From an uncultured Verrucomicrobiota bacterium (lineage in GTDB: Bacteria; Verrucomicrobiota; Kiritimatiellia; Kiritimatiellales; Tichowtungiaceae), in NCBI GenBank assembly GCA_903831085.1, contig CAIKWE010000024.1, forward strand, positions 1 to 58,310: a DNA stretch of 58,310 nucleotides, in the 5' to 3' direction. Each line of letters begins with the position of its first letter. The first letter of the stretch is position 1. This document shows positions 8,776 through 42,975 of this stretch, piece after piece. Both the position numbers and the translations under genes were made by a program. The notes under the pieces were generated by a model that worked only from the letters and a program-made list of their open reading frames with translations, did no database searches and was not told the origin of the DNA.

Positions 8776-10305
8776 ATGCCTTCTTTTATCGAAAAAATCG
8801 GAAAACTGTTCAAAAAGCAGGAAACCTACCGTCCCTCGCAGTCCAAAGTCGCCGCGAAGCCAGCCGCTGATTCAAAAAAACCAGCCGCCAAACGGCCTCC
8901 ACAGACCGATGCGCCCCGCAAACACGGCCGCGGAGAACACCGCAAGCCCGCCAGCGTACCGCAAAAGGAACGGGCGCCGAGCCCTGCGCCCGTCCGAAAA
9001 GGCTCCCAACCTTGGAACCCCGATTCCTTCCAGGTTGAACCGCAGGAAGGCAAAACCCGTTTCCGCGATCTCGAACTGCCTATTGACCTGCTCCACGCCA
9101 TCGCCGACCTGAAATTCCAGTACTGCACTCCGATTCAGGCGGAAATCCTTCCGTCCGTCCTCGCCGGTAAAGATATGGCGGGCAAAGCGCAGACCGGTAC
9201 CGGCAAAACCGCCGCCTTCCTGCTGGGCATCTTCACCCGCTTCATCAAAAACCGGCAGGAAGCGCCCAAACCCGGAACGCCCCGTGCGCTCATTCTCGCC
9301 CCGACGCGCGAACTCGCCATGCAGATCCGCGACGATGCCGAAAAGCTCAGCACCTACACTCCCTTTACCACCGTCGCCATTTACGGCGGCATCGACTACG
9401 ACAAACAGCGCCGCATGCTCGAACAACCCGTCGACATCATCGTTGCCACGCCGGGCCGTTTGATCGACTTCGCCAATCAGGGTGCCCTCAACCTGCGCGA
9501 AGTCGAAGTGCTCGTCATCGACGAAGCCGACCGCATGCTTGACATGGGCTTCATTCCCGATGTCCGAAAAATTGTCTACAAGACCCCGCCCAAGGAAAAC
9601 CGGCAGACCCTGCTCTTCAGCGCCACCCTCGACGATGAAGTTATGCGCCTCGCCTCCGCCTGGATGACCGATCCCGGCAAAGTTGAAATTGAGCCGGATC
9701 ATAACGCCACCGAACTGATCGACCAGCAGGTCTACCTCGTCACCGACGATCAAAAATTTGCCCTGCTCTACAACATCCTCAAAAAAGAGGTTGGCGACAG
9801 CTCCGCGCTCATCTTCACCAACCGCCGCGACCAGACCGAACGCCTTGCCGACGCCCTCTTCCGCTACGGGATAGACTGCGAGATCCTCTCCGGCGCCGTT
9901 GCCCAGAACAAGCGCCAGCGCATTCTGGCCGACTTCAAAGACGGACGCTGTAAACTCGTTGTCGCCACCGACGTCGCTGGCCGCGGCATCCACGTCGATG
10001 ACATAACCCACGTCGTTAACTTTAACATCCCGTCGCAGGCCGATGACTACGTCCACCGTATCGGCCGCACCGGCCGCGCCGGCAAAAAAGGCATCTCAGT
10101 CACTTTCGCCTGCGAAAAAGAATCGTTCGAGCTTCCCGCGATTGAAGAACTGCTCGGCAAACGCCTGCCCTGCATCCAGCCCGAACCGAACATGCTTGTC
10201 CTGCCCCAGCCGGTGCGTAAAGCGCCCTTCCGCGAAAGCCGTCCGCCGCAACGTAGCGGAGGCGGACGCCCGCCGCCTCGCCGCTCCGGCCCTCCGCGCC
10301 GCTAA
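8776..10305 (+). CDS. rhlB: RhlB-like DEAD-box ATP-dependent RNA helicase
   Basis: This 509-residue RNA helicase has a basic, disordered N-terminal extension (about 1-90) before the helicase core. Motifs seen are the Q motif (YCTPIQAEIL), I (AQTGTGKT), Ia (PTRELA), Ib (TPGR), II (DEADRMLDMGF), III (SAT), IV-V (ATDVAGRGIHV) and VI (YVHRIGRTGRAG). The phrase around the Q motif is most like RhlB, the degradosome helicase. The tail is Arg/Pro-rich and probably binds RNA. Its last ten codons (10273-10305) recur at 18001-18030, beyond the lipid operon. Confidence 0.9.
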   Translation: MPSFIEKIGKLFKKQETYRPSQSKVAAKPAADSKKPAAKRPPQTDAPRKHGRGEHRKPASVPQKERAPSPAPVRKGSQPWNPDSFQVEPQEGKTRFRDLELPIDLLHAIADLKFQYCTPIQAEILPSVLAGKDMAGKAQTGTGKTAAFLLGIFTRFIKNRQEAPKPGTPRALILAPTRELAMQIRDDAEKLSTYTPFTTVAIYGGIDYDKQRRMLEQPVDIIVATPGRLIDFANQGALNLREVEVLVIDEADRMLDMGFIPDVRKIVYKTPPKENRQTLLFSATLDDEVMRLASAWMTDPGKVEIEPDHNATELIDQQVYLVTDDQKFALLYNILKKEVGDSSALIFTNRRDQTERLADALFRYGIDCEILSGAVAQNKRQRILADFKDGRCKLVVATDVAGRGIHVDDITHVVNFNIPSQADDYVHRIGRTGRAGKKGISVTFACEKESFELPAIEELLGKRLPCIQPEPNMLVLPQPVRKAPFRESRPPQRSGGGRPPPRRSGPPRR

Positions 10306-10347
10306 CCAACTGCGCTGGGGCTTACAGTTTCCCCATACACACAGAAG

Positions 10348-10375
10348 CCGCCCCTTTTCCCGGGCGGATTTTCCC
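10348..10375 (+). terminator. Putative rhlB terminator
   Basis: CCGCCC (10348-10353) pairs with GGGCGG (10362-10367) around an 8-base loop and is followed by a T-rich stretch. It lies about 45 bp after the rhlB stop, consistent with intrinsic termination. Confidence 0.55.
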
Positions 10376-10409
10376 GTTTTTCAATAGCCGAAACTTTTTC
10401 TGCCGTTTT

Positions 10410-10424
10410 TTCCAAGGTTTGGAA
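10410..10424. repeat. TTCCAA-N3-TTGGAA palindrome, perfect
   Basis: Perfect copy with spacer GGT in the rhlB downstream gap. A one-mismatch copy is 42 bp further on (10452-10466). Confidence 0.85.
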
Positions 10425-10497
10425 AAGCACAGGCTGGCCGGATCATTCAACGTCCAATGCTTGGAAAACCAGACGGCAATCGGCTATGCTCCGGCTC

Positions 10498-10566
10498 ATG
10501 CGAAAACCCAACCCAATCCGAGACCGCCTCTACGAAATTATTTTTGAGGCCGCTATCCGCGTTTAG
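10498..10566 (+). pseudogene. Remnant of an ion-channel gene 5' end
   Basis: An ATG opens 22 codons reading NPIRDRLYEIIFEAAIRV before a TAG. From memory of the family, RxRLYEIIFEA followed by xTPAG is the N-terminus of voltage-gated K+-channel-like membrane proteins, and here it stops where the first membrane helix should begin. A further open stretch (10567-10650) has no obvious relationship. It looks like a gene truncated at the left edge of the acquired operon. Nothing else codes between 10306 and 10729; that gap otherwise holds the terminator and two palindromes. Confidence 0.4.
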
Positions 10567-10729
10567 AAAATATCCGTTGGCAACTGGCGATACCCTCACG
10601 ATCCGCAGACCTATGCCGAAGTGGAGTTAAATGTAGAAACTGCTCTTCAATAAACCACTCGTTTTCTTAAAATCCGTGGTCTACTCTAACCACGATTTTG
10701 AAAGTACATTCGACAACGAAAGAAAAGAT

Positions 10730-11710
10730 ATGAATACAGTCAAGGCCATCCGGTTCGTAAGGGCATATATCAAATCTATGCGGCTTTACTATGCGTTTAT
10801 CACGGGAATCGCAGGATGGATCGGGGTCTCGTTTTACAATTTCTGCATGCCGGGACAATACAGTTGGACGAGAAACACGCTGTTGCTGGTCATGCTTTTC
10901 CTGAGCTGGGGAATCAACCAGATCATCAACGATTACCTCGGTCTTCCTGAAGACAGAATCAATGCACCGAACCGCCCGATGGTTACCGGCGAACTCAACC
11001 CCCGCATAGCCATGTGGGTATCCACAATTTTGATGACCGGCGTAATCGGAATCTCATGGGTGCTGAGCCCGTGGGCGATTATTCCGGTTATTCTAGGTGC
11101 CGTTTTAAATGTTGTCTATGAACACGCAAAAGCGTGGTCTTTAGCAGGAAATGTGATCTTCGGCTTGTCGATTGCCATGTGTACCGCATACGGCTTTCTG
11201 GCAGCAGGACCATTGCCGTCTCCAGTCTTTACCAGCCAGCGCATCTGCGTCCTGGTTCTGGTTGCGCTTCTCAACGGACTGATGACCTACTACACTTACT
11301 TCAAAGATTATGCTGGGGACAAGGCCGCAGGAAAACACACCTTCGTCGTTCGATACGGACTGAATGTGGCCCGCTATGCGGGTCTTTTGGGGGCTTTTCT
11401 ACCCACCATCACCTTTTTCATTTTTGTACAGACCAGATGGTTTCCCCTGGAATCCATTTTGTATCACCGCGATTTTGTTTTCTGCGGCATCATGACGCTC
11501 TTCCTGCAATTGTGGACGGCACTGCTGTTCTTCAGGCATCCGGAGGGAGATCGCACCTATTTCAGTCTGGCGACAAATATCCGCGCCTGCGTGGCGGGGC
11601 AAATCACTCTGATTGCCATCTTTAACGGAACGCTGGCGCTTTATTTGCTGTCGGCCAGTTATGTTTTTATCGGGTTCCTGTTTGATCAATACAAGGACGC
11701 AAAATCATGA
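10730..11710 (+). CDS. UbiA-family prenyltransferase
   Basis: An integral membrane prenyltransferase of 326 residues with about eight or nine hydrophobic helices. The two Asp-rich diphosphate-binding motifs are visible: NDYLGLPEDRIN (about 74-85) and the later YFKDYAGDKAAGK (about 205-217). UbiA enzymes attach polyprenyl chains to aromatic or glycerol-phosphate acceptors. The acceptor cannot be inferred from sequence. I start at 10730, where the cytosolic N-terminal helix begins; the ribosome site is weak. It is the first gene of a tightly packed operon and overlaps the radical SAM gene by 4 bp. No quinone genes are nearby, so a lipid role is favoured. Confidence 0.88.
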   Translation: MNTVKAIRFVRAYIKSMRLYYAFITGIAGWIGVSFYNFCMPGQYSWTRNTLLLVMLFLSWGINQIINDYLGLPEDRINAPNRPMVTGELNPRIAMWVSTILMTGVIGISWVLSPWAIIPVILGAVLNVVYEHAKAWSLAGNVIFGLSIAMCTAYGFLAAGPLPSPVFTSQRICVLVLVALLNGLMTYYTYFKDYAGDKAAGKHTFVVRYGLNVARYAGLLGAFLPTITFFIFVQTRWFPLESILYHRDFVFCGIMTLFLQLWTALLFFRHPEGDRTYFSLATNIRACVAGQITLIAIFNGTLALYLLSASYVFIGFLFDQYKDAKS

Positions 11711-12993
11711 GTAAACAGCACTTCCGGACCGGCCTGCTAAAAGGGTTGATTTACCTGCGCATCATCCTGCACATCCCTTTTCACTATGGATTTCGTCCGC
11801 ATTTTTTTTCATCGCCCGTTGCCTACATCCGGTTTCTGCGCCGGGCGCTACAACTGCTGCTCGTATTCCGGCACAACAAGATCGTCCGCGTATTTAACGG
11901 TTACAAACTCCACCTCTACCTTCCGGCCTACCCGTCCAAGGCCTTCTTTTACGCAATAGAAAGCAAGCTGCTGAAATCCCCTCCCGGCCCGACCACTGTT
12001 GTTTTCTCCATGACCAAAGCCTGCCCGTACCATTGCGAGCATTGTTATCAGAAAAAAGACGGCGCTGCGGATTTGGACGAATCCCTGATGATTCAAACGG
12101 CGCTGGCCGTAAAAGACGCCGGCGTAGCGATGTTTGATATTGAGGGAGGAGAGCCGTTTGCCCGTTATTCCAGGCTGCTCAAGCTGGTGCAATCGCTCGA
12201 TGAGCGCAGCGAAATCTGGATTAACACAACCGGCGCACTGGTCAAACCGGGGATGTTCAACGAACTGAAAACCTCCGGTTTATTCGGCATTATGGTTTCA
12301 ATCCACTCGCCGGATCGCGCAAAGCATGACGCCTTTACCGGCGTTCCGGGCTCTTTTGATGCGGCCTGCGCCATCATGAAATCCGGTCGGAGTGCGGGAC
12401 TTGTAACCGCGTGCAATTCCGTTCTCTCGGAGGAGGATATTCGACATGGCGAGCTGGATCGCCTCATGGAGCTCACGCGCGAGCTGAACTGCGATTTTGT
12501 GCAACTCATCCATCCCAAGCCGTCCGGGCTGTGGATCGGAAAAAAAGACGGGATGCAAACGGATCCCGCAATGATCCAGACCATTCAGCAGGAGCATGTC
12601 CGGTATAACAGCCGCGCCATGAATGCCTATCCGGCACTGGCGGCGCAGGTCTTCGAGGAACAGCGAAGCGTGCTGGGATGCACAGCCGGAGCCGCCGACC
12701 GCTACTACATCGGAGCCGGCGGAGAAGTCCAGCCGTGCGAGTTCCTCAATATTTCCTTCGGCAATGTGAAGGAAGATTCCTTCGGCGTCATCTTCGCTCG
12801 CATGCGTTCTGTCTTTAAAGTCCCCTGTTCGGACTGGCTCTGCTGCACGCAAGCCGACGCCATTCAACAGCTTTTTATTCAACACGATATAAAACAAACC
12901 CCTCTTCCGTGGAAGATCACGCGAGAACTGGTGGAAAGCTGGGATCGGGGAGAACCAACCCCCATCTATAAGAAACTCGGCATCTACTCATGA
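11707..12993 (+). CDS. Radical SAM protein with SPASM-like C-terminus
   Basis: A 428-residue radical SAM enzyme. The first 95 residues are hydrophobic and basic, suggesting membrane association. The [4Fe-4S]/SAM motif CPYHCEHC (CxxxCxxC) follows TKA at about residue 103, and IEGGEP is the SAM-contacting GGE motif. The C-terminal region has Cys residues (GCTAGA, QPCEF, CSDWLCC) like SPASM auxiliary clusters. It overlaps genes on both sides by 4 bp, so it is translated with UbiA and the lipid kinase. Substrate unknown; the context suggests modification of a lipid intermediate rather than a peptide, as no small peptide gene is evident nearby. Confidence 0.88.
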   Translation: MSKQHFRTGLLKGLIYLRIILHIPFHYGFRPHFFSSPVAYIRFLRRALQLLLVFRHNKIVRVFNGYKLHLYLPAYPSKAFFYAIESKLLKSPPGPTTVVFSMTKACPYHCEHCYQKKDGAADLDESLMIQTALAVKDAGVAMFDIEGGEPFARYSRLLKLVQSLDERSEIWINTTGALVKPGMFNELKTSGLFGIMVSIHSPDRAKHDAFTGVPGSFDAACAIMKSGRSAGLVTACNSVLSEEDIRHGELDRLMELTRELNCDFVQLIHPKPSGLWIGKKDGMQTDPAMIQTIQQEHVRYNSRAMNAYPALAAQVFEEQRSVLGCTAGAADRYYIGAGGEVQPCEFLNISFGNVKEDSFGVIFARMRSVFKVPCSDWLCCTQADAIQQLFIQHDIKQTPLPWKITRELVESWDRGEPTPIYKKLGIYS

Positions 12994-13901
12994 GCATCAA
13001 ACTCATCATGAATCCGTCATCCCGTTCCGGAAAAGGACGGCAGCTCTGGCCCCTCTGGGAGGCTGAACTTCGCAGAAGGGACGTTTCATTTGAATCGATC
13101 ATCACGTCGGGGCCGGGTGATGCTTTTCAACTTTGTAAAAACTCTACAGGTGACGAGACGCTGATCGCCGCAGGCGGCGACGGAACGATTAACGAAGTGC
13201 TCGATGGAATCATTCAGTCCGGAAACCCTTCTCTGCGAATGGGCGTCCTGTACGCAGGAACCAGTCCGGATTTTTGCCGATTCCACGGAATCCCGACCGA
13301 TCCGATCGCGGCCGTTCAGCATCTGCTGACCGGATCGATTCGGCACGTTGATGCTGTTCAAATCGAGCATGCGGACGATGCGGGCGCTCCGCACATCGCA
13401 ACGTTTGCCTGCGGCTGCAACATTGGACTCGGCGCCGCCGTGGCAGATTTTGCCAATCGACGCCGCCGCCTGCTGGGAGATCGGCTTGGCACCGGCCTGG
13501 GAGTACTTCGCGCCCTGATGCGAACCATTCCAATTGATCTGGATATAGAGATCGACGGGGAAAAGCTGCACCTACCTCAAGTCAATAATCTTTCTATCCT
13601 TAAAAATCCGCACATTGCGTCGGGCCTGAAGCTTAATGTTGAACTGCAACCAGATGACGGCAAACTGGTGCTGGTTGCCATCCATGGACAAACCCGACCC
13701 GGACTTTGCAAACTCCTGCCGGGATTCTGTTCAGGGAACGCCGCCGACTCGGAAGCGGTTCTCGTAAGAGAATGCACTTCTGTCCGCGTTTGTTCCGTCG
13801 CACATCAGGCGATTGAATTCGATGGCGATCCCCGCGGGACACTGCCAATCACAGCACGAATTCTTCCTCGCGCACTCAACCTGATCGGAGGAACCTCATG
13901 A
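12990..13901 (+). CDS. Diacylglycerol/sphingosine-type lipid kinase
   Basis: A 303-residue DAGK-catalytic-domain protein. The N-terminal MNPSSRSGKG and the ATP-binding signature GGDGTINEVLDGI (about residues 55-67) define the family that phosphorylates lipid hydroxyls (diacylglycerol, ceramide, sphingoid bases). The usual GTxNDFAR is replaced by GTSPDFCRF, so the substrate pocket may differ. It overlaps both neighbours by 4 bp. Beside a serine palmitoyltransferase-like gene and a reductase, it most plausibly phosphorylates the lipid made by this operon. Bacterial ceramide kinases belong to the same broad superfamily. Confidence 0.87.
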   Translation: MSIKLIMNPSSRSGKGRQLWPLWEAELRRRDVSFESIITSGPGDAFQLCKNSTGDETLIAAGGDGTINEVLDGIIQSGNPSLRMGVLYAGTSPDFCRFHGIPTDPIAAVQHLLTGSIRHVDAVQIEHADDAGAPHIATFACGCNIGLGAAVADFANRRRRLLGDRLGTGLGVLRALMRTIPIDLDIEIDGEKLHLPQVNNLSILKNPHIASGLKLNVELQPDDGKLVLVAIHGQTRPGLCKLLPGFCSGNAADSEAVLVRECTSVRVCSVAHQAIEFDGDPRGTLPITARILPRALNLIGGTS

Positions 13902-14890
13902 CCGAAATTGAAATCATCCGCATGATCTCAGGCAAGTTCCCACGAAGCGATCAACAACTGAACAAGCTGTTTGAATGCGATGCGGAGCTGCTCCGCATCG
14001 GCGAGCAAATCTGGGGACTTTCCATGGATGAATTCAGCCCCGGGGAGGATTTTTTCACATCGGATCAACCCCGGGTTCTTGGCGCAAATCTGGCGGTAGC
14101 GACACTCAGTGATCTTTTTGCCGCAGGGGTTGAGCCTCGGTTTTTTATGCACTCGCTCTCCGTTCCGAAAACTGTGAGTTCATTTTTTCTGAAAGAGTTG
14201 ACTGATGGCATTCAGTCGGTGCTTGGTCAGGCGAGATGCTTTCTTTGCGGAGGCGATCTGGGAACCGCCGACACCTGGCGGTACTGCGGTTTTGCCATGG
14301 GTCCGGTCGGTGCCGCAGCTCCTATCACCCGCAAGCTGGCCGGCACCTCGAAAACACTCTGGATTACAGGACAGCTGGGCGATGCCAATCTGGCCGTTCT
14401 GAACCAAACATCCACCCCGGCGTTTGAATTGCGGCTCAGGGAAGCAGAACTGATTCGAAAGTATGCGAATGGATGCATCGATACCAGCGGAGGCCTCATG
14501 GATGCGCTCTGGACGCTGCACCTCCTGAACCCGCAGTTGCAGATCAATCTTCATGCCGAAAAAATCCCCTTTGCACACGCGCTCCGCGCGTACCCTCTGC
14601 CGCCGGGCATTCCTCTTGAGGCCGCACTCGTTGGCGGCGCAGGCGAGTACGAATTGCTGTTCGCAACTCCAGACGACCTGTCCAGCACGGCCAGAGCCGG
14701 ACTGGAATCAATGGACATAACCGCCATTGCCGATCTCTCCATCAACGCGACACCCGGCCTGTTCATCTGCCGAAATAATGAACCCCTTCGCGCCATGACA
14801 ACCCCGCCGCCCTGCCCGCGGGAAATTGAATCGATAACAGAGTACGTCCACGCAGTCGCGGGCTTTGCCGCCAATTTATTCAAGGGATAA
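13898..14890 (+). CDS. ThiL/AIR-synthase-like ATP-dependent enzyme
   Basis: This 330-residue protein has the PurM/ThiL/HypE/SelD fold. Its segments GEDFF, ATLSDLFAAGVEP, CGGDLGTAD and DTSGGLMDAL correspond in order to ThiL's substrate and Mg motifs (compare SDFAAMGA, GGDLSQG and DISDGLATD in the real thiL at 2107-2979). It is clearly a paralogue rather than a second thiamine kinase: the GDD Mg motif is altered and thiL is already present. The family activates phosphate, carbonyl or amide groups with ATP. In this operon it may phosphorylate or cyclise a lipid precursor. It overlaps the kinase gene by 4 bp. Confidence 0.78.
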   Translation: MTEIEIIRMISGKFPRSDQQLNKLFECDAELLRIGEQIWGLSMDEFSPGEDFFTSDQPRVLGANLAVATLSDLFAAGVEPRFFMHSLSVPKTVSSFFLKELTDGIQSVLGQARCFLCGGDLGTADTWRYCGFAMGPVGAAAPITRKLAGTSKTLWITGQLGDANLAVLNQTSTPAFELRLREAELIRKYANGCIDTSGGLMDALWTLHLLNPQLQINLHAEKIPFAHALRAYPLPPGIPLEAALVGGAGEYELLFATPDDLSSTARAGLESMDITAIADLSINATPGLFICRNNEPLRAMTTPPPCPREIESITEYVHAVAGFAANLFKG

Positions 14891-14897
14891 ACCGCAA

Positions 14898-14987
14898 ATG
14901 ACACCATGCGAATCCATAGCAGACGGCGGAATGTTTGCGCGATCCAGTACGACAGTTCGCAGCCACTTCGATGCGCTCAACATATGA
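14898..14987 (+). CDS. Possible 29-residue ORF in the operon gap
   Basis: Between the ThiL-like stop and the oxoamine-synthase start, an ATG opens 29 codons containing CESIADGGMFARSS and ending DALNI. The stop TGA lies at the start of the next gene's ribosome site. It has no clear Shine-Dalgarno of its own, but fills the only sizeable gap in the first six genes of an otherwise overlapping operon. It may be a leader or coupling peptide, or chance. Confidence 0.3.
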   Translation: MTPCESIADGGMFARSSTTVRSHFDALNI

Positions 14988-15000
14988 AAAAGGAACAACG

Positions 15001-16266
15001 ATGACAGAATCGCATTCCCAGACAAAAAACTTCGAGAATTTCACCTCCCGAAACGGCCAGGCGGATATCTTTCAGAAAGCATATGATCTGGACGCGTTTT
15101 TGCGCTCCACCACACCGGGCTATCTGGATGGTCTAGGCCTTCAGATTTTGGGACCCATGACCAGCACCGTTACGATTCAGGAAAATGACAACGTCACCCA
15201 CGACGTTATCATGATGGGCTCCAATTCATATCTATCGATCACCACGCATCCTCGCGTCATCGAAGCCTGCAAAGCCGCTGCAGATCAATACGGGTACGGC
15301 ATGGGGGCCGTTTCCCTGTACGCAGGTACCAGCCCGTTGCACCGCAAACTGGAATCCTTGATCGCCAAATTCTATGGAACCGAAGATGCCGTTCTGTTCC
15401 CTTGCGGATACTCGGGAAATATCGGCGTCATCTCGGCACTCTGCGGCCCCGGCGATGTGATCATCAACGACACCGCAAATCATGCCTCTATTTTTGATGG
15501 TTGCGCGCTGTCCGGTGCCGAAATCAAACTGTATCTCCATCGCAACATGCGCCATTTGGAAAAAATCCTCAGACGGCTGCCCGCATCACAACAGGGACGT
15601 CTGATTGTGACGGACGGAGTGTTCTCTATGCATGGAGATCTCGCCCCGCTGGACGAAATCGTTGCGCTCGCCCGCCAATATAACTGCCGCATAATGATCG
15701 ACGAAGCGCACGGCGTCGGAGTTGTCGGCCCGACGGGGCGCGGTACTGCGGAACACTTCGGGTGCACCCGAGATATCGATGTAATCTATGGCACACTGAG
15801 TAAAACACCTGGCGCCATTGGCGGTTATTGTGCAGGCTCCATCGCACTCACTCGCTATCTCCGTTATTATGCCCGCACCTATTTCTTTTCTACCAGCATC
15901 CCCGCACCCATCGTGGCGGGTCTGATCGAGGTGTATAAACTCATGATCGAAGATACCGCCGGGCGAAAAGAGCTCATGGAAAACGTGCGGTATATGCTGA
16001 CAGGTCTTAAAGCTCTCGGATTCAACACCGGAGAAACCCAATCGGCCATCATCCCACTGATTGTCGGCGACGAAGAAAAGCTGGGCGCCTTCCAAAATGA
16101 TCTTCGGCGAAACGGACTCTTCACCAATGTCGTAACCTATCCAGCCGTGCGCCGCAAAGAGTGCCGCCTCCGCCTGAATATTATGAGCACGCTGACCCGC
16201 GAGGAAATGGATCGCGCACTGAACCTCCTGAGAACCTTCGGAAAAAAATATTTCATCATCCCATGA
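15001..16266 (+). CDS. Serine palmitoyltransferase-like alpha-oxoamine synthase
   Basis: A PLP enzyme of 421 residues that condenses an amino acid with an acyl thioester to a 2-amino-3-ketone. Motifs include SNSYLSITTHP, NDTANHASIFDG, DEAHGVGVVGPTGRG and the PLP lysine in TLSKTPGAIGGY. The family includes BioF, KBL, HemA and SPT. No biotin or heme genes accompany it; the lipid kinase and reductase neighbours favour an SPT-like role making a long-chain ketobase. AAAAAGGA lies 6 bp before the ATG at 15001, so the longer frame is rejected. It overlaps the reductase gene by 4 bp. Confidence 0.87.
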   Translation: MTESHSQTKNFENFTSRNGQADIFQKAYDLDAFLRSTTPGYLDGLGLQILGPMTSTVTIQENDNVTHDVIMMGSNSYLSITTHPRVIEACKAAADQYGYGMGAVSLYAGTSPLHRKLESLIAKFYGTEDAVLFPCGYSGNIGVISALCGPGDVIINDTANHASIFDGCALSGAEIKLYLHRNMRHLEKILRRLPASQQGRLIVTDGVFSMHGDLAPLDEIVALARQYNCRIMIDEAHGVGVVGPTGRGTAEHFGCTRDIDVIYGTLSKTPGAIGGYCAGSIALTRYLRYYARTYFFSTSIPAPIVAGLIEVYKLMIEDTAGRKELMENVRYMLTGLKALGFNTGETQSAIIPLIVGDEEKLGAFQNDLRRNGLFTNVVTYPAVRRKECRLRLNIMSTLTREEMDRALNLLRTFGKKYFIIP

Positions 16267-17294
16267 AACACGTATTCATAACCGGGGCCGCCGGATTTAT
16301 CGGCGGATATATCGTTAACCAGTTTGTCGACGAGGGCTGGCATGTGCTGGCTCTTGTCCATCGCCGCACATCGCCATCCCTTGATGCCCTTGTAGCAAAG
16401 GGCCGGGTCACGATCCTTCGTGGCGATCTGAAAAACATGCCGCCCATAGGAGCGTCGTTAGTCGCGGAGCTGAACTCGCGCCAAGCGGCTCTTGATGTCA
16501 TCGTCCACTGCGCCGGGCGCGCCTCGGATGTCGGATGGCGGAGCGCATTTCGAAAAGCCAACTATGATTCGGTTCGGGAACTCGTTCAGATTTCAAAAAC
16601 GATGAATGTCCAACGCTTTGTCTTCATATCGACAACCGACGCGTACGGGCTGTCCGACTTCCACGGCGAAGCGGAGGACGAACTGCCCCTGAAAGCAAGG
16701 CCCTCCAATCCTTATCCGGAATTCAAAATCAAAGCGGAACACATGATTCGTCAGGAACTCTCCCCTGAGCAATTCGTCCTCATTCGTCCGGCGCAGGTGT
16801 GGGGTGTTGGAGATCGAACCCTGACCCCCCGAATTGTCGATTTTCTAAAAACATCGCCATGGATCGTTCATTTTGGAAAATGGCGCGGACAGAACCGCTG
16901 GCCACTGGCACATGTTCGAAACGTTGCATTAACAACCTTCCTGGCATCCGTCGATCCCGACATCGGCGGCCACGCCGTAAATGTCGTTGATGACGAACAA
17001 ACCACAATGGATGAGTTCTACCATATTTTGGCCGCCCTCTACCTTCCTCATAAACGCTTTCGCACAGTCACGCTTCCATTTTGGGTTGGCCAAATGGTCT
17101 CTTCACTCATCTCCTGGATATCCAACTGCCTGAATCTGGACACCCCTTTTACGGATCCCTCCTTCTACGCCCTGTATTCAGTCAGTCACAATCTTGACTT
17201 CAGCAATCATCGAATGAAAAAGCTTATCACTCAGGAAAACCGCCACCTGTTCACCCGCGATGAGGGTGTCAAAGAACTAGCGGATATAATTTAG
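16263..17294 (+). CDS. NAD-dependent epimerase/reductase (candidate 3-keto-lipid reductase)
   Basis: An extended SDR protein of 343 residues with Rossmann motif TGAAGFIGG (about 7-15), the Ser/Thr site FISTTDAYG and the catalytic pair YPEFK (YxxxK). The start overlaps the preceding stop as ATGA. In Caulobacter-type sphingolipid synthesis the 3-ketosphinganine reductase CerR is an epimerase-like SDR of this general kind, so a reductase acting directly after the oxoamine synthase is plausible. That is inference from neighbourhood; sugar or sterol substrates remain possible. The C-terminal third is hydrophobic (LPFWVGQMVSSLISWI), suggesting membrane contact. Confidence 0.82.
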   Translation: MKHVFITGAAGFIGGYIVNQFVDEGWHVLALVHRRTSPSLDALVAKGRVTILRGDLKNMPPIGASLVAELNSRQAALDVIVHCAGRASDVGWRSAFRKANYDSVRELVQISKTMNVQRFVFISTTDAYGLSDFHGEAEDELPLKARPSNPYPEFKIKAEHMIRQELSPEQFVLIRPAQVWGVGDRTLTPRIVDFLKTSPWIVHFGKWRGQNRWPLAHVRNVALTTFLASVDPDIGGHAVNVVDDEQTTMDEFYHILAALYLPHKRFRTVTLPFWVGQMVSSLISWISNCLNLDTPFTDPSFYALYSVSHNLDFSNHRMKKLITQENRHLFTRDEGVKELADII

Positions 17295-17304
17295 AAAGCA
17301 CCTG

Positions 17305-17997
17305 ATGAACAATCCAATCCGCCGCAAAGCACTACTCGCCCTCTGTCTTCTGATTCCGGCGCCCACGCTCGGGGTGCTGTTCGGGATGATCTGGTTTCCA
17401 GACACCCCCCTCGGCACAGGCCTCTTCTTTTTTTGTAAAATCTGGTTGCTGACACTTCCGTTGCTCTGGCGACTTTTCGTCGACAAAAAACGGATCAGCC
17501 TCTCTCCGACCCGCAAGGACGGATGGCTGGCCGGGATCGGCACCGGCCTGCTCATTTTCGGCGTTATCCTCGCCTTCTGGTTTCTGCTCGGCCCAAAACT
17601 AATCAACCCCGAATTCGTCCGCGAAAAAATGACGGCCGTAGGCCTGACCAGTCTGCCTCGCTATCTCGGCATGATCGCCTACTGGATTCTGATCAACTCC
17701 CTGCTGGAGGAATACGTCTGGCGCTGGTTCGTCACCGAAAAATTTCACACCCTCTTCCGCCACTCGTGGATTGCGATTGTGCTCTCGGCCGCCGCCTTCA
17801 CCCTGCATCACATCATCGCGATGACCACCTTCTTCAACGGCACCGTCACTGCCCTCTGCGCGCTGTTCATCTTCATCGGCGGAGCCATCTGGTCGACGCT
17901 CTATTTGCGCTACGAATCCATCCGCCCCGCCTACATCAGCCACGTATTCGCCGACCTTGCCATCTTCCTCATCGGCGGACGCATTCTCTTCTCATAA
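17305..17997 (+). CDS. CPBP (CAAX/Abi) family membrane protease
   Basis: A 230-residue membrane protein with about six hydrophobic helices. The glutamic intramembrane protease motif EEYVWRWF (EExxxR) and the later His motif FTLHHIIA are present. Family members cleave prenylated or other membrane proteins, or act in bacteriocin immunity. It follows the reductase by 10 bp and is the last gene of the operon. Its stop codon is only 3 bp from a second copy of the rhlB 3' end, so it marks the right edge of the acquired block. A second, unrelated-looking CPBP protein is at 25356-26234. Confidence 0.85.
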   Translation: MNNPIRRKALLALCLLIPAPTLGVLFGMIWFPDTPLGTGLFFFCKIWLLTLPLLWRLFVDKKRISLSPTRKDGWLAGIGTGLLIFGVILAFWFLLGPKLINPEFVREKMTAVGLTSLPRYLGMIAYWILINSLLEEYVWRWFVTEKFHTLFRHSWIAIVLSAAAFTLHHIIAMTTFFNGTVTALCALFIFIGGAIWSTLYLRYESIRPAYISHVFADLAIFLIGGRILFS

Positions 17998-18000
17998 GCG

Positions 18001-18030
18001 CCGCCTCGCCGTTCCGGCCCGCGCCGCTAA
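18001..18030 (+). pseudogene. Remnant of the rhlB 3' end
   Basis: These 30 bp match the last 33 bp of rhlB (10273-10305) with one mismatch and one 3-bp deletion. In the same frame they read PPRRSGPRR-stop, against PPRRSGPPRR-stop in the intact gene; the mismatch (CGC to CGT) is synonymous. The seven-gene operon thus lies between two rhlB ends. The match is short and Arg/Pro-rich, so convergent low complexity is a weaker alternative. Confidence 0.65.
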
Positions 18031-18152
18031 GAGCACTTTCTGTTCAATTTGTCGCAACAAGGCAGGCGGGACGCCTGCGATACGTACCGCCGCCGTCTCG
18101 GCGGCCTTGTCTTCGACCCTGATATTGCGACCAACTATCTCAAAAGTGCTCT
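18030..18152. mobile_element. MITE-like element with 10-bp terminal inverted repeats
   Basis: AGAGCACTTT at 18030-18039 and AAAGTGCTCT at 18143-18152 are perfect inverted repeats about 100 bp apart. Between them are two GC-rich hairpins, GCAGGCG-gga-CGCCTGC and GCCGCCG-tct-CGGCGGC. There is no coding capacity. It is immediately downstream of the rhlB remnant, whose stop codon its left end touches. Confidence 0.5.
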
Positions 18153-18156
18153 AAAC

Positions 18157-18186
18157 GAAAAGGCCGTCCTTCCGGGCGGCCTTTTT
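18157..18186. terminator. Bidirectional terminator between the lipid operon and ftsH
   Basis: GGCCGTCC (18162-18169) pairs with GGGCGGCC (18174-18181) around TTCC. A T-run follows on the plus strand and an A-run precedes it, so it can end both the rightward operon and leftward ftsH. Confidence 0.75.
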
Positions 18187-18188
18187 GT

Positions 18189-20211: not shown

Positions 20212-20391
20212 AATTAAATCCTTATCGGCGGAGACCATAGCATTGGCCTGCGCCCAAATCAACAGATTGAGGCGCGGGAGAATAGCCGCCGAACCCGCGA
20301 AAAGACAGCAAGAAAAGGTGGAACGCGCCAGAAGAAGTTCTGTGGGTGCGGACGGCGGCCGCACCTCTCCTGACCCAACCTTCCGGGGCCA

Positions 20392-20563
20392 CCGGCCCCG
20401 GCTACAGAAGACCGAGGCTACAATCCCATCGCCTTATGAAGTCGTTGTTTTGGATTGTGCGCCTTTCCATCGGCGGCTAGTCTGCCGACTTAGAAGAAAG
20501 AGACATTCCTGAAACAGCGGATTTGAAGTCCGCTCAATAGAATTCTAGAGAAAGGGGAAAAGA
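20392..20563 (+). repeat. Cassette leader repeat, copy A1
   Basis: About 172 bp closely similar to 20909-21082, with the same landmarks in order: a CCGGCCCCGG start, a CCCATCGCCTTATGAAGTCGT segment, a GCGGCTAGTCTGCC dyad and CATTCCTGAAACA. It ends exactly at the start codon of the small gene at 20564. The gap from the ftsH start to here (20212-20391) shows nothing else coding. Confidence 0.75.
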
Positions 20564-20761
20564 ATGAATTACACACTTTTTGCTATCGCATGCTACATAG
20601 TCATGCGTGGGCTACAGGTTTTATTTGAAGAGGATCTCCAGACCAAATGGTGCAAGATCCTGATCAAAACCGTGACCGGTATAATGCTGTACGCCGCTCT
20701 CGCGAGCCTATTCGTATGGTACAACGAGATATCTTTCTTAGGATTCAATCCCAACAAGTGA
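20564..20761 (+). CDS. Small membrane protein (cassette 1 cargo)
   Basis: A 65-residue protein with two hydrophobic segments (about 4-20 and 34-52) separated by an acidic EEDLQTKW stretch. GAAAGGGG gives a good ribosome site six bases upstream. I do not recognise a family. It lies between leader repeat A1 and a remnant of the tilS 3' end, forming the first of two tandem cassette-like units. Its base composition is more AT-rich than tilS. Like the cargo of the second unit, it is small and membrane-associated. Confidence 0.6.
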   Translation: MNYTLFAIACYIVMRGLQVLFEEDLQTKWCKILIKTVTGIMLYAALASLFVWYNEISFLGFNPNK

Positions 20762-20816
20762 TTCTGTTTCCGAAAGAAAAACGGACTCATTGGTGAGTAG
20801 CTTCGGCAACAAACAA

Positions 20817-20909
20817 ATGCAGGGCCGGTTCGGAATCTGATGACAGTTCCCAGCCGCGGGCGATGCGGTAGCCGGGGAGCCAGATAATTTCTCCGCCGCA
20901 TTCGACGAC
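20817..20909 (-). pseudogene. Remnant of the tilS 3' end
   Basis: These 93 bp align without gaps to 21658-21750 of tilS, with six differences. On the minus strand all six are synonymous (for example ATT/ATC, CGC/CGT, GCC/GCT, CTG/CTC). The frame stays open past the homology and ends with a different tail (VAEATHQ rather than SDEG). It is therefore the end of a diverged tilS allele, not a recent copy. Confidence 0.85.
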
Positions 20910-21082
20910 CGGCCCCGGCTACAGAAGACCGCGGCTGCAGTCCCATCGCCTTATGAAGTCGTTATTTTGGATTGTGTACCTCTCAGACGGCGGCTAGTCT
21001 GCCGACTTCGATGAAACAGATATTCCTGAAACAACGAAATTGAAGTGCGTTCAATAGCACTGTTAGCGAAGACGGGTAGACC
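20909..21082 (+). repeat. Cassette leader repeat, copy A2
   Basis: The second copy of the about 173-bp leader found at 20392-20563. It begins exactly where the tilS remnant stops and ends at the start codon of the YcxB-like gene. The two copies are clearly homologous but have many point differences, so the duplication is not recent. Confidence 0.75.
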
Positions 21083-38724: not shown

Positions 38725-41538
38725 ATGAGCAAAAAGCTATTTCTCCTCGACGGCATGGCGCTGGTTTACCGGTCTTACTTCGCCTTCATGCGCAACCCGA
38801 TGATCAATTCGAAGGGTCGTAATGTTTCCGCCGTCTTCGGTTTTCTTAACACCCTGCTCGAACTGCTCGAAAAGCAGAGCCCGACGCACATCGCCGTCGC
38901 TTTCGACGTTTCCGGCCCGACCTTCCGCCACGACAAATTTCCCGAATACAAAGCGCAGCGCGAAGAAACCCCCGAGGAGATCCGCGCCGCCGTTCCCTGC
39001 ATTCAGGAATTCCTGAAAGCGTTCAATATTCCGATCATCACTGCGCAGGGTTTTGAAGCTGATGACCTGATCGGCACGCTCGCCCGCCTCGCCGAAAAAG
39101 AAGGCTTCGACACCTACATGGTCACGCCCGACAAAGATTTTACCCAGCTCGTCGACGCGCACACTTTCGTTTACAAACCCGCCAAGAGCGGACTGCCGCC
39201 GGAAATCATGGGCGTTCCCGAAGTGCTCAAATACTGGGAGATCGAGCGCATCGATCAGGTCACCGACATTCTCGGCCTCGCGGGCGACGCCGCCGACAAT
39301 ATTCCCGGCGTGCCGGGCGTCGGCCCGAAGACCGCGCAGAAACTGATCGCGCAGTACGGCTCGATCGAAAACCTTCTCGAACACACCGGCGAACTGAAGG
39401 GCAAGCTCAAGGAAAACCTCGAAGCCAACAAGGAACGCGCCCGGCTCTGCAAATGGCTCGTCACCATCAAAACCGATTCGCCGGTCGACTATGATCCGGA
39501 CGGACTGCACCGCGGCAAACTCGACGAAGAAAAACTCGCCGCCCTCTTTTCTGAATTTGAATTCTCATCCTTCTCCAAACGGCTCTTCGGCAAACCCGCC
39601 GCGCCGGTGGTACGGGCGACATTCATGTCGGCCCCTACCACCACCCCGGGCGGACAAGGCGATCTGTTCTCCTTTGCCCTTCGGCAAGACTCAGGGCAGG
39701 CGGCGCAACCGGATGAGGCTCCGGTTTACAAAACCATCGACGACGTAAAACACTCTTACCGCCTCGTCCAGACCTTGGAAGAACGCAAGGCGCTGGCGGA
39801 AAAATTGGGTCAAGCGGCACGCTTGTGCTTTGATACCGAAACCACCGGACTCGATCCGCGCGCCTCGCGGCTTGTCGGCATGTCGTTTTCCGTAAAACCG
39901 CACGAAGCGTGGTTCGTCACGCTTCCGCCCGACGATGCGGAGCGGCAAAAGGCGCTCGAACTTTTCAGGCCGCTCTTCGAAAACGAACAGATCGAAAAGA
40001 CCGGCCACAACCTGAAGTTCGATATTGCCATGCTTCGCGCCGCCGGAATTGAAGTGCGCGGAAAATTGTTCGACACGATGCTCGCCCATTACCTACTCGA
40101 TCCCGACCAGCGCCACGGACTCGACAAGCTGGCCGGAACGCACCTCGGCTACGCGCCGGTTCCGATCACCGCGCTGATCGGCGAAAAAAAGAGCGAACAG
40201 CTCTCCATGGCCGACGTGTTGATCGATAAGCTCAGCGACTACGCCTGTGAAGATGCCGACGTCACCATCCAGCTCCGCAAAATCCTCGAGCCGCAGCTTG
40301 AGAAACAGAAACTCACCAACGTCTTCGACACCATCGAGTGTCCGCTCATTCCGGTGCTGGTCGAAATGGAAGCCAACGGCATCGCGCTCGACACCGCCGC
40401 GCTGAAAGAAATTTCCAACAAGCTGGCGGTCGAAATCGCGGAACAGGAAAAGCGTATCTATCAACTGGCCGGACGCGAATTCAATCTCAACTCGCCGAAG
40501 CAGCTCGGCGAAGTGCTCTTCGATGAACTAAAGCTGGCCGACAAGCCGAAGAAAACCAAGACCGGGCAGTACACCACCAACGAAGAAGTGCTCGACCAGT
40601 TGGCGACCGAACATGAAATCGCCCGCGTCCTGCTCGACTACCGCACCGCGAGCAAACTCAAAAGCACCTACGTCGATGCCCTGCCGGAATTCATTTCCAA
40701 AAAAACCGGCCGCATCCATACCTCGTTCAGCCAGGCCGTCACCACCACCGGACGGTTGGCGTCGAGCGACCCAAACATTCAGAACATTCCCGTCCGCACC
40801 GAACAGGGACAGGAAATCCGCCGCGCCTTCGTCGCCGGTTCCAAGGAATTCACTTTGCTCGCCGCCGACTATTCACAGATCGAACTGCGCATCATGGCGC
40901 ACCTCAGCGGCGATCAGTACATGAAGCAGGCTTTTGTCAGCGGCGAAGACATTCACACCGCCACCGCCGCGCGCGTCTTCGGCGTCGCGCTGGCCGACGT
41001 CACCTCCGACATGCGCCGCAAAGCCAAGATGGTCAACTTCGGCATCATCTACGGCATCTCCGCCTTCGGCCTCGCCCAGCGCCTGCGCATTCCGCGCAAA
41101 GAAGCGGCGGAAATTATCGAGAGCTATTTCAAACAGTATCCGGCAGTAAAAGCCTGCATGGACGGCATCATCGAAACTGCGCGCAACAAAGGCTACGTCG
41201 AAACCATCGCCGGACGACGACGCCACATCCGCGACATCAACACCGCCAACGGCACCGTGCGTGCCGCCGCCGAGCGCTACGCCATCAACGCGCCGATCCA
41301 AGGCTCCGCCGCCGACATGATCAAGATCGCCATGATCCGCATCCACGCCCTGCTGAAACAGAAGCACGCCAAAACCCGGCTCCTGTTGCAGGTTCATGAC
41401 GAACTCGTCTTTGAACTGCACAAGGACGAACACGCTCTCATCGAAGAAATCCGCGAGCTGATGAGTTCCGCCCTGCCGTTATCCGTTCCCGTCGTCGTCG
41501 ACTGCGGCACCGGCAACAACTGGCTTGAGGCGCATTAG
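38725..41538 (+). CDS. polA: DNA polymerase I
   Basis: A 937-residue repair and Okazaki-fragment polymerase. The N-terminal 5'-3' exonuclease has FDVSGPTFRH and GLAGDAADNIPGVPGVGPKTA. The 3'-5' proofreading domain is active-looking (FDTETTGLDP, HNLKFDIAM, YACEDADVT). The polymerase domain has motif A DYSQIELRIMAHLSGD, motif B RRKAKMVNFGIIYG and motif C QVHDELVFE. A REP-like repeat (GCCCT...AGGGC, 39676-39697) is inserted in frame in the linker before the proofreading domain. The final 71 bp are duplicated at 42905-42975. No ribosome site is evident before the ATG. Confidence 0.98.
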   Translation: MSKKLFLLDGMALVYRSYFAFMRNPMINSKGRNVSAVFGFLNTLLELLEKQSPTHIAVAFDVSGPTFRHDKFPEYKAQREETPEEIRAAVPCIQEFLKAFNIPIITAQGFEADDLIGTLARLAEKEGFDTYMVTPDKDFTQLVDAHTFVYKPAKSGLPPEIMGVPEVLKYWEIERIDQVTDILGLAGDAADNIPGVPGVGPKTAQKLIAQYGSIENLLEHTGELKGKLKENLEANKERARLCKWLVTIKTDSPVDYDPDGLHRGKLDEEKLAALFSEFEFSSFSKRLFGKPAAPVVRATFMSAPTTTPGGQGDLFSFALRQDSGQAAQPDEAPVYKTIDDVKHSYRLVQTLEERKALAEKLGQAARLCFDTETTGLDPRASRLVGMSFSVKPHEAWFVTLPPDDAERQKALELFRPLFENEQIEKTGHNLKFDIAMLRAAGIEVRGKLFDTMLAHYLLDPDQRHGLDKLAGTHLGYAPVPITALIGEKKSEQLSMADVLIDKLSDYACEDADVTIQLRKILEPQLEKQKLTNVFDTIECPLIPVLVEMEANGIALDTAALKEISNKLAVEIAEQEKRIYQLAGREFNLNSPKQLGEVLFDELKLADKPKKTKTGQYTTNEEVLDQLATEHEIARVLLDYRTASKLKSTYVDALPEFISKKTGRIHTSFSQAVTTTGRLASSDPNIQNIPVRTEQGQEIRRAFVAGSKEFTLLAADYSQIELRIMAHLSGDQYMKQAFVSGEDIHTATAARVFGVALADVTSDMRRKAKMVNFGIIYGISAFGLAQRLRIPRKEAAEIIESYFKQYPAVKACMDGIIETARNKGYVETIAGRRRHIRDINTANGTVRAAAERYAINAPIQGSAADMIKIAMIRIHALLKQKHAKTRLLLQVHDELVFELHKDEHALIEEIRELMSSALPLSVPVVVDCGTGNNWLEAH
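39676..39697. repeat. REP-like palindrome within polA
   Basis: GCCCT and AGGGC bracket TTCGGCAAGACTC-like sequence. The CCTTCGGCAAG...CTCAGGGC pattern is a known kind of intergenic REP in many genomes. Here it encodes ALRQDSGQA in the variable linker of polymerase I. Confidence 0.5.
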
Positions 41539-41552
41539 GGCCGGATCGCCAG

Positions 41553-41621
41553 CTTGCAATTAGCCGACGCCAACACTTGCAATTAGCCGAAATAAGAACT
41601 TGCAATCAGCCGACGCTAAGC
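41553..41621. repeat. Three 23-bp tandem repeats downstream of polA
   Basis: Units starting CTTGCAAT at 41553, 41576 and 41599 share the core CTTGCAATTAGCCGA, with period exactly 23. They lie between the polA stop and the ATPase gene, inside the inserted block. They could be a regulator-binding array or a recombination site. Confidence 0.8.
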
Positions 41622-41638
41622 GCTAACTGTGTCTAGCC

Positions 41639-42880
41639 ATGGAAACAACGTCGATCTATCCAAGATTTCTTCTGCCCCGTGTCCGTGAGGCGCTTCGCGA
41701 CACGCCAGCCGTTCTCATTCACGGCCCGCGACAATGCGGAAAAACCACTTTAGCTCGATTGATAGATCGCCGTTATTCTTATGTTACTTTTGATGACGAA
41801 AACAAACTAGTCGCAGCAAAAGAAGACCCCATTGGTTTCGTAGACGCGCTTCCCGCGCGAACCGTCTTGGACGAAATACAACGGGCTCCGTTTCTTTTCA
41901 CGGCATTGAAACGTTCCATTGACGAAAATCGTCGGCCCGGCCGCTTCTTGATGACCGGTTCAGCCAATCTGATGCTGTTGCCGCAAGTGACCGACTCGTT
42001 GGCTGGTCGCCTCGAAATTCTCCGGCTGTTTCCTCTTTCGGAGTGTGAGATGGGACAGAAAAATTCCGGGCTGGCAAAGCGCCTGTTTAAAAAGCCTTTT
42101 TCCTTCACCGGAGAGGGGATCCCCGAAGAAGAACTGATTCAGCGTGTTATTCGCGGCGGCTTTCCGGAAGCCGTGCTGCGCAGCACTCCGGCCCGGCGCA
42201 GACAATGGCACACCAATTATATCGAAGCCATTATCCAGAGGGATATTCAGGACGTGGCCAGAATTTCCGCGCTGGATCAAATTCCGAAACTGCTGCTCAT
42301 GCTCAGCAATCAAAGCGGACAACTCGTAAATGTGAGCGAAATAGCCAAAGCCTTTCAGTTGAGCCGGCCCACGTTGGATCACTATATCGCCCTTCTGAAA
42401 AAACTGTTCCTGCTGGAACTTCTGCCGCCCTGGTTCAGCAATCAAAATAACCGCTTGGTAAAAACGCCGAAAGTCCATCTGGCCGATACCGGTCTGGCCT
42501 GTGCCACGCTGGGAACAAATGAGCGCCACCTTGCTCAAACCCGTCCATTATGGGGCCGAATGCTGGAAACCTTCGTCTTCAACGAACTCCGTCGTCAGGC
42601 AAGCTGGTGCGAAGAACCCCTGCGCTTCTTCCACTACCGGGATCGCGACGACTATGAAGTGGATATCGTGATCGAAAATCAGTCGGGAGAACTGACTGGA
42701 ATAGAAGTTAAGTCGTCCGCAACCGTTCAGGCTCACGATTTCAAAGGATTGAAACAACTTCAGCGAACAGCCCCCGGCGCGATGAAACAGGGGATTCTCC
42801 TTTATCGCGGAAAAGAAACCCTTTCCTTTGGACAAGGCATGATCGCCCTGCCTATTGATGCGCTATGGAATATCAAATGA
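41639..42880 (+). CDS. AAA ATPase with DUF4143 (nuclease-like) C-terminus
   Basis: A 413-residue protein of the AAA_14/DUF4143 type. Walker A is GPRQCGKTTLARL (about residue 30), Walker B TVLDEIQRAP, and the sensor-like MTGSANLMLLPQVTDSLAGR follows. A winged-helix segment (VSEIAKAFQLSRPTLDHYIALL) precedes a PD-(D/E)xK-like end (DYEVDIVIENQSGELTGIEVKSS). These proteins are frequent, highly mobile accessory genes in many bacteria and archaea; their role is unclear. The gene lies between the intact polA and a duplicate of the polA end, so it was acquired as an insertion. The genome palindrome is absent from it. Confidence 0.9.
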   Translation: METTSIYPRFLLPRVREALRDTPAVLIHGPRQCGKTTLARLIDRRYSYVTFDDENKLVAAKEDPIGFVDALPARTVLDEIQRAPFLFTALKRSIDENRRPGRFLMTGSANLMLLPQVTDSLAGRLEILRLFPLSECEMGQKNSGLAKRLFKKPFSFTGEGIPEEELIQRVIRGGFPEAVLRSTPARRRQWHTNYIEAIIQRDIQDVARISALDQIPKLLLMLSNQSGQLVNVSEIAKAFQLSRPTLDHYIALLKKLFLLELLPPWFSNQNNRLVKTPKVHLADTGLACATLGTNERHLAQTRPLWGRMLETFVFNELRRQASWCEEPLRFFHYRDRDDYEVDIVIENQSGELTGIEVKSSATVQAHDFKGLKQLQRTAPGAMKQGILLYRGKETLSFGQGMIALPIDALWNIK

Positions 42881-42904
42881 GAATTCTCCGCCACCCAATA
42901 CTCG

Positions 42905-42975
42905 CCGCCCTGCCGTTATCCGTTCCCGTCGTCGTCGACTGCGGCACTGGCAACAACTGGCTCGAAGCTCACTAA
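42905..42975 (+). pseudogene. Remnant of the polA 3' end
   Basis: These 71 bp align without gaps to 41468-41538 with six differences: ACC/ACT, CTT/CTC, GAG/GAA, GCG/GCT, CAT/CAC and TAG/TAA. All are synonymous, including the stop. The encoded tail (VVVDCGTGNNWLEAH-stop) is identical to that of polA. This is the end of a diverged polA allele stranded downstream of the ATPase gene. Confidence 0.92.

Follow-up and report, generated by a model that had tools for sequence, protein, structure and literature searches.

The 58,310-nt stretch of DNA analysed here (the window; contig C24 of genome G000, which comprises 2.14 Mb in 60 contigs and is 95% complete) contains three intact housekeeping genes, rhlB, tilS and polA, each followed by one or more cargo genes and then by a partial second copy of its own 3' end, which we term a scar. 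Similar scars recur at some of the same slots in members of the genus, the cargo differs from relative to relative, and scars and intact ends have diverged within the genus in the manner of coding sequences. We consider it probable that each scar is the seam between two alleles that became stacked in a variable slot downstream of a conserved gene. Homology-facilitated illegitimate recombination (HFIR), with a homologous anchor in the shared gene and an illegitimate join within its last ~100 bp, is the process that we favour for their origin on the basis of sequence comparison. A direct-repeat search of the window returned D1 (150 nt), D2 (tilS end), D3 (polA end) and D18 (short rhlB copy), and each end copy was located on the same strand as its gene, downstream of it and behind other genes. 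The three cases of one geometry described in an initial annotation therefore exist and lie about where it had placed them; its range of cargo, from one to seven genes, also held, with seven behind rhlB, one behind polA and one behind tilS.

The slot between ftsH and tilS is composed of the following features:

18214..20364, minus strand: ftsH, convergent neighbour with native terminator (Pfam M41/AAA)
20391..20540, plus strand: D1a, native copy of the region upstream of ftsH (87% repeat D1; collinear in the relative G008)
20564..20761, plus strand: allele-a cargo, a 65-aa open reading frame (ORF) convergent to tilS (from the sequence; no Pfam family)
20809..20914, minus strand: Scar 2, copy of the tilS 3' end (92% over 104 nt, 20811-20914)
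20908..21057, plus strand: D1b, repeat of the ftsH-upstream region (87% to D1a; joined to Scar 2 by 2-7 nt of microhomology)
21083..21628, plus strand: allele-b cargo, a YcxB-like protein convergent to tilS (Pfam PF14317, E 2.6e-5)
21637..22938, minus strand: tilS, intact, anchor gene 2 (TIGR02432/TIGR02433)

The left part of this block consists of ftsH, D1a, the 65-aa ORF and the last 104 nt of tilS, and the right part of D1b, an ORF that appears unrelated by eye, and the whole of tilS. Because G008 and G009 carry in the same slot a single arrangement of ftsH, D1, another small ORF and tilS, the block is, as its sequence reads, two alleles (a and b) of one slot arranged one after the other. 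To judge by eye, G000, G008 and G009 each have different ORFs between ftsH and tilS. An integron cassette array, which would have attC sites between its cassettes, was also considered; D1 is explained as the region upstream of ftsH, which is collinear in G008. Scar 2 and the intact tilS end show 8 differences, all of them synonymous. At the join, D1 and intact tilS share 2 contiguous nucleotides (6 of 7 aligned), and this overlap would amount to 7 nt if the parent of Scar 2 read like G009.

The second copy of the ftsH-upstream region, D1b, had gone unmentioned in the initial annotation. Within D1 (20391-20540 and 20908-21057) and its flank there are short sub-repeats for which the rest of the genome gives ~40 matches. 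Palindromes of the TTTCCAAACATTGGAAA type and a repeated GC-rich hairpin lie within the tilS frame itself at 21951-21987, 22218-22242 and 22419-22474, and the tilS matches of several relatives break near residues 160-187, resembling palindromic elements inserted into a coding gene. A TTTCCAA...TTGGAAA palindrome is present at window positions 22218, 22450, 27592 and 50108 as well as in intergenic regions of relatives.

At the polA slot the arrangement is simpler:

38725..41538, plus strand: polA, intact, anchor gene 3 (Pfam; 91% in G008)
41639..42880, plus strand: cargo, AAA_14/DUF4143 ATPase (Pfam)
42905..42975, plus strand: Scar 3, copy of the polA 3' end including the stop codon (93% over 70 nt)
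42991..43665, plus strand: SGNH/GDSL hydrolase, conserved downstream neighbour (Pfam; collinear in G008 and G009)

Scar 3 differs from the intact polA end at 6 positions and, again, all differences are synonymous. The SGNH hydrolase is found further downstream of polA in G000, G008 and G009 alike, and the cargo in between is the ATPase in G000, a gene with a weak Y1_Tnp match below the cut-off in G008, and a SEC-C protein plus a 226-aa ORF in G009. Three tandem units with a TTGCAATTAGCCGA core, 23 bp apart, occupy 41551-41614 and lead into the DUF4143 ATPase gene; a unit with this core was not found elsewhere in G000 when at most 1 mismatch was allowed.

The rhlB slot harbours the largest cargo of the window:

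8776..10305, plus strand: rhlB-like DEAD-box helicase, intact, anchor gene 1 (Pfam DEAD, Helicase_C)
10306..10675, no strand: stretch between rhlB and cargo (GC-rich hairpin and T run, unlike the native terminator)
10676..11710, plus strand: cargo, UbiA-family prenyltransferase (Pfam PF01040)
11707..12993, plus strand: cargo, radical SAM/SPASM protein (Pfam)
12990..13901, plus strand: cargo, diacylglycerol kinase-like (Pfam PF00781)
13898..14890, plus strand: cargo, AIR synthase/thiamine-phosphate kinase-like (Pfam PF00586; TIGR01379 below cut-off)
14935..16266, plus strand: cargo, BioF/serine palmitoyltransferase-like enzyme (Pfam PF00155; all NCBIfam matches below cut-off)
16263..17294, plus strand: cargo, NAD-dependent epimerase/dehydratase (Pfam PF01370)
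17305..17997, plus strand: cargo, CAAX (Rce1-like) protease (Pfam PF02517)
17999..18030, plus strand: Scar 1, copy of the rhlB 3' end including the stop codon (32 nt, only 44.6 bits)
18031..18151, no strand: insertion of ~120 bp resembling a miniature inverted-repeat transposable element (inverted ends of 9 bp with TAA on either side; not present in G008)

The rhlB protein is 72-85% identical over its full length in 10 genus relatives. Scar 1 deviates from the intact end by one synonymous base and a 3-nt indel. The claim that scars and intact ends differ synonymously was therefore correct for the substitutions at all three genes. In G008, rhlB and ftsH are adjacent and the seven cargo genes are missing; there, 22 nt that equal the last 22 nt of Scar 1 stand between intact rhlB and the native terminator. 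A copy of the seven-gene, lipid-type block (10676-17997) resides in a different context in G004, where the radical SAM protein encoded on contig C149 is 89% identical. This was the only close copy of that protein in the 57 other genomes searched. The G004 copy (L359, 3047-9718) has extra sequence inside, and the G004 contig ends within the block. The cargo homologue of G004 shows no match to the window upstream of 10715, and the stretch 10306..10675 is probably donor-derived. The small inverted-repeat element is situated directly 3' of the stop codon of Scar 1.

G000, beyond the window as well as in it, and three further genomes were scanned by comparing the last 150 nt of each gene with its next 10 kb on the same strand. 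The cut-off was 45 bits in this four-genome scan and 33 bits in a first sample outside the window (267 genes on 20 stretches). The scan covered 826 kb of G000 (the window and 40 stretches, 39% of the genome), 430 kb of G008 and 400 kb each of G010 and G023, which are the two single-contig genomes sampled, G023 belonging to family f2. Scars were sorted from paralogues by protein comparison and inspection. For G000, 13 downstream matches were obtained at 45 bits and 7 of them (tandem paralogues, antisense ORFs, repeats) were dropped, leaving 6 matches in 5 genes; with rhlB, just below the cut, added, the total amounts to 7 scars at 6 genes, namely rhlB, tilS, polA, lplA (two scars), a glycosyltransferase-like gene without a Pfam family and a UPF0047 gene. 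The lplA stretch of G000 lies on contig C39, and G004 has one lplA scar, behind a ParE/antitoxin pair (addiction module). In G008, lplA is separated by ~0.3 kb from the next gene and the cargo is missing. One of two G008 matches was kept, a scar above the cut behind a pseudouridine synthase gene. From G010, none of 3 matches was retained (two genes paralogous to each other, a questionable ORF of 116 aa and an ORF that spans a broken regulator copy), and from G023 none of 12 (10 high-copy matches in one array, 1 high-copy match elsewhere and one 25-nt match). Recurrence beyond the window (G000, G004, G008) bears out one half of the 'general process' that had been proposed; the other half, specificity for 3' ends, is weak, as detailed below.

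Among 606 G000 genes of at least 150 aa, 14 low-copy 3'-end matches were observed on the same strand within 10 kb downstream when 0.14 would be expected at random (the UPF0047 gene is shorter than the 150-aa cut and stands outside this estimate). The anticipated excess over shuffled positions is thus present, with about half of the matches being paralogues: of the 14, 6 are scars, 7 reflect tandem paralogues or tail sequences in common (in one instance through an antisense ORF), and 1 is an antisense ORF lying across the polA scar. Opposite-strand 3' matches of at least 45 bits were encountered in none of the four sampled genomes. The window is richer in scars than the rest (3 of 55 genes versus 3 of 640; Fisher p = 0.008), so the stretch annotated initially is an unusually dense one.

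The codon changes between scars and intact ends bear on their origin. For 7 scars of G000 and G008 (tilS, polA, both lplA, the glycosyltransferase-like gene, UPF0047 and the G008 gene, with rhlB and the G004 scar excluded) we counted 38.5 synonymous versus 19.5 non-synonymous changes, corresponding to a pN/pS of 0.17 and a binomial p = 6e-11 against random change, a value too strong as a test of decay, as changes arising in the intact gene face selection. The tilS and polA scars together account for 14 synonymous and no amino-acid changes, and in both cases scar and intact end look like recently functional alleles. The nearer lplA scar, with 4.5 synonymous and 9.5 non-synonymous changes, looks older and decayed. 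A tandem duplication starting in the 3' end of the gene, with later divergence and replacement of cargo, would leave exactly a partial 3' end at its join, and for the UPF0047 gene, where the scar is 97% identical and the cargo genes on its two sides are paralogous (51-57% identical), plain tandem duplication may be what happened. As an explanation for the scars in general we regard it as improbable: a decaying duplicate should gain many non-synonymous changes, and duplication followed by decay was rejected for tilS and polA on their ratio of 14 to 0; at tilS, moreover, the cargo genes to the left and right of the scar show no visible relationship even though the flanks are 87-92% identical.

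Some genomic islands carry a replacement 3' end of their target gene, and the order of intact gene, cargo and leftover 3' end of the target seen here equals theirs. This likeness speaks for site-specific integration into the 3' ends of genes, with an integrase that worked in trans or has meanwhile disappeared, and so does a run of 43 identical nt in the polA scar and the intact end, a conceivable core site. We nevertheless find such integration very unlikely. Unlike integrase-borne islands, the loci have diverse anchors, very small cargo and no common core, and no integrase family was seen in the scanned cargo, the nearest being one weak IS200-type transposase match below the cut-off in G008. 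Both the gene and the sequence change from junction to junction, no motif was apparent on visual inspection, and the flavobacterial scars described below, which equal or exceed in length the overlap with the neighbouring gene in relatives, are not expected of a fixed site. The statement in the initial annotation that its blocks lack integrases and transposases agrees with the Pfam results for the 9 cargo proteins, the 65-aa ORF being without a family, and no transposase-type target motif common to the junctions inspected by eye was visible. Related candidates were rejected on similar grounds: a mobile element in the window (no recombinase family in the scanned cargo, no common junction motif seen), an integrase-borne island (no tyrosine or serine integrase family in the scanned cargo, junctions at sequences unrelated by eye) and a transposon insertion (no short identical target duplication; the flanking copies are 32-104 nt long, diverged and gene-specific). 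An array of the type VI secretion system (T6SS)/Rhs displacement kind was likewise discarded, since the cargo of the window belongs only to enzyme, ATPase and YcxB families and includes no effector or immunity genes.

In the HFIR scheme, DNA of a relative would enter with the 3' part of the gene and a different downstream cargo, and would pair by homology within the conserved gene. Its far, non-homologous end would then be joined via chance microhomology into the same gene of the recipient, a few dozen bases before the stop codon, giving a product with the gene (donor 3' end), the donor cargo, the leftover native 3' end and the native downstream gene. A join inside the gene end would be tolerated because the gene has already received a complete end from the donor, and it would sit near the gene end because joins further downstream would cut the neighbour or its terminator. 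The anchor genes rhlB, tilS, polA and lplA are intact, unbroken across the entry point and orthologous to those of relatives, and the cargo has no homology at the recipient site: in G008 the rhlB and lplA slots carry no cargo, and those of tilS and polA are occupied by other genes. By hand count, the far-side neighbour is convergent at 7 of 9 genus scars compared to 38% of genes (p = 0.02). Homologous recombination in the gene body combined with an illegitimate join, the mechanism offered first in the initial annotation, remains the best fit to these data. Within this scheme we infer the direction of transfer, a crossover within the gene body and natural transformation as the route. ComEC was found in G000; it is also present in 10 of 14 control genomes and, because it is that common, says nothing about competence. 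Ku is absent in G000.

The same end product might arise from a merodiploid, that is, a larger duplication with both alleles formed by homologous recombination, the second copy of which was then mostly deleted. In pneumococcus, transformation is reported to yield merodiploids (PMC3784515), and two loci of G010 are possible intermediates: in L211 (10461-10610) a methyltransferase copy without its first 50 residues lies downstream of the intact gene, and in L223 (10859-11166) a broken regulator copy lies upstream of the intact gene. The probability of this route is low in our estimation, as none of the 7 scars in 826 kb exceeds ~106 nt.

Scar geometry was also detected beyond the phylum. For tilS, 73 loci from elsewhere were fetched; after removal of 5 that looked Verrucomicrobia-like, 68 were left (1.24 Mb, 1,023 genes), and three of these showed it, all behind dsbD and all in flavobacterial metagenome-assembled genomes (MAGs). 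The scan gave 5 matches in these three loci, of which one was an antisense ORF and one a scaffolding artefact. Eight flavobacterial-type loci (one labelled only Bacteroidota) carry a dsbD/flavin reductase pair. The two genes are convergent and overlap by 36-39 nt in five of the eight; in the other three they are apart and the overlap sequence is present twice, once per gene. In these scarred loci the match of the additional dsbD end extends over 43, 43 and 73 nt, and the leftover is never shorter than the overlap kept in relatives, which suggests from the sequences that, for a scar to survive, the join must fall upstream of the last base of the neighbour. The scars in L303 and L326 contain no N. 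Locus L305 counts for less because a 10-N scaffold gap (3629-3638) joins two strain alleles there, the first being the ancestral one, and mimics the order of gene, cargo and partial end, the second allele starting after the N run with a 59-nt, 97% dsbD end.

Several results weigh against stacking by HFIR. No scar was left after inspection in G010 and G023 (400 kb each), none was present in the 31 of 68 other-phyla loci that their titles identify as isolates, and an automatic scan of 124 related loci recovered only the polA scar of G000 and a weak 36-nt candidate behind polA in G025; the sensitivity of this last scan is limited, because it missed the lplA scar of G004. At 33 bits outside the window, raw counts were 7 for 3' ends downstream, 5 for 3' ends upstream, 4 for 5' ends upstream, 5 for mid-gene segments and 6 for 5' ends downstream. 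The same-strand controls come near the 3'-downstream count because tandem paralogues populate all classes, and an excess over them emerges only after paralogues and repeats are removed by inspection. The 3' scars downstream outnumber 5' copies upstream, judged mainly from listings with two compared as proteins, by 4 to 2 genes outside the window (p = 0.69) and by 7 to 2 overall (p = 0.18), which is not significant, and the 9 scars of the convergence count are not all independent. Contrary to simple expectation, the intact polA end is nearer to G008 than the scar is (68 versus 62 of 71). At tilS the scar is slightly nearer to G008 than the intact end (97 versus 95 of 104), tilS and lplA do not decide which end is native, and no clear mosaic switch was seen along intact rhlB, tilS or polA when compared to relatives; the donor side is therefore unproven. 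Both parents are visible at the tilS join only, of all junctions, and the 22-nt extra rhlB end of G008 could have originated by a small local duplication. The cargo behind the pseudouridine synthase gene of G008, which has no Pfam match, has by eye the look of what we take to be a REP-type (repetitive extragenic palindromic) transposase, and enzymes may have been involved at this slot and at polA in G008. Lastly, changes in the dsbD scars are mostly non-synonymous when read in the dsbD frame (3 synonymous to 7 non-synonymous in L303 and 0.7 to 4.3 in L326), an excess that may stem from the constraint of the flavin reductase, whose end the copy encodes on the other strand.

An assembly chimera, in which contigs of two co-occurring strains with and without cargo are joined and the start of the second allele mimics a partial gene end, would account for the lack of scars in the 31 isolate loci and the two single-contig genomes, and L305, where 10 N are followed by a second dsbD allele, is a real instance in a MAG locus. 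The genus members G005, G009, G011 and G012 are MAGs, as are all three scarred flavobacterial-type loci. We still judge this explanation rather unlikely for the set of scars. There is no N in the window or in the checked scar loci of G000, G004 and G008, the alleles at the tilS junction share 2-7 nt, too few for a k-mer join, and same-slot scars occur in separate genomes (rhlB in G008, lplA in G004, dsbD in L303 and L326), most of them adjoining the native neighbour.

HFIR is known mostly from laboratory constructs, with a far join that typically uses a few nucleotides of microhomology, and gene entry without integrases or transposases has mostly been inferred from laboratory transformations. 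HFIR is characterised by a homologous anchor on one side, an illegitimate join on the other and foreign DNA between (PMC3240628; PMC2884548), and is described in three competent species, namely pneumococcus, Acinetobacter and Pseudomonas stutzeri, and in E. coli conjugation (PMC3240628). The loci presented here share the anchor, the illegitimate join and the cargo between them with these events, and differ from the laboratory cases in that the evidence is comparative, several housekeeping-gene slots are concerned and the far join falls in the last ~100 bp of the anchor. HFIR has further been proposed for the stacked effector-immunity arrays of Vibrio cholerae, in which the 3' end of the effector gene is shifted back (PMC5361080). 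As in these arrays and in orphan Rhs tips, a newly arriving module is placed at a conserved anchor and displaces the former 3' part downstream. In the arrays an effector locus serves as the anchor, and the immunity genes that are kept provide a selective advantage as the reason; here the anchors are housekeeping genes, the cargo is of another kind and it is the gene end that is retained. The suggestion that no described system has this signature consequently does not stand. Dimorphic loci of E. coli, S. aureus and S. pyogenes, for which homology-assisted illegitimate recombination was proposed as the source, resemble our slots in carrying small strain-specific segments at one site, and differ in that leftover gene ends do not serve as a signature of the event in the available part of that account (PMC2884548). 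Searches of open-licence PMC papers brought up none on gene-end scars behind housekeeping genes; gene pick-up by HFIR as such is known but seldom catalogued in bacteria.

If stacking by HFIR is the correct explanation, a simple 3'-end scan would find natural events, date them by their synonymous differences and show reused slots. The dsbD case provides a testable survival rule, namely that the leftover must not be shorter than the overlap with the adjacent gene, and also a warning that scaffolded MAGs can fake the signature. Whether gene ends beside tightly packed neighbours act as general enzyme-free capture slots across bacteria is doubtful at present; if they did, successive insertions anchored by homology would build up 3'-end scars in layers that can be dated, and one genome would be enough to estimate how fast, from which donors and how long ago genes were captured illegitimately in nature.

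Two minor observations were made during the scans. Mirror cases exist in which a short copy of a 5' end lies ~0.8-0.9 kb upstream of its gene, in G008 (L170, 4430-4482) and in G000 (C1, 22413-22450). In G023 (L240, ~6900-19000) an array of short ORFs with a ~52-bp repeat, several copies of which are 100% identical, resembles an integron-type cassette array.

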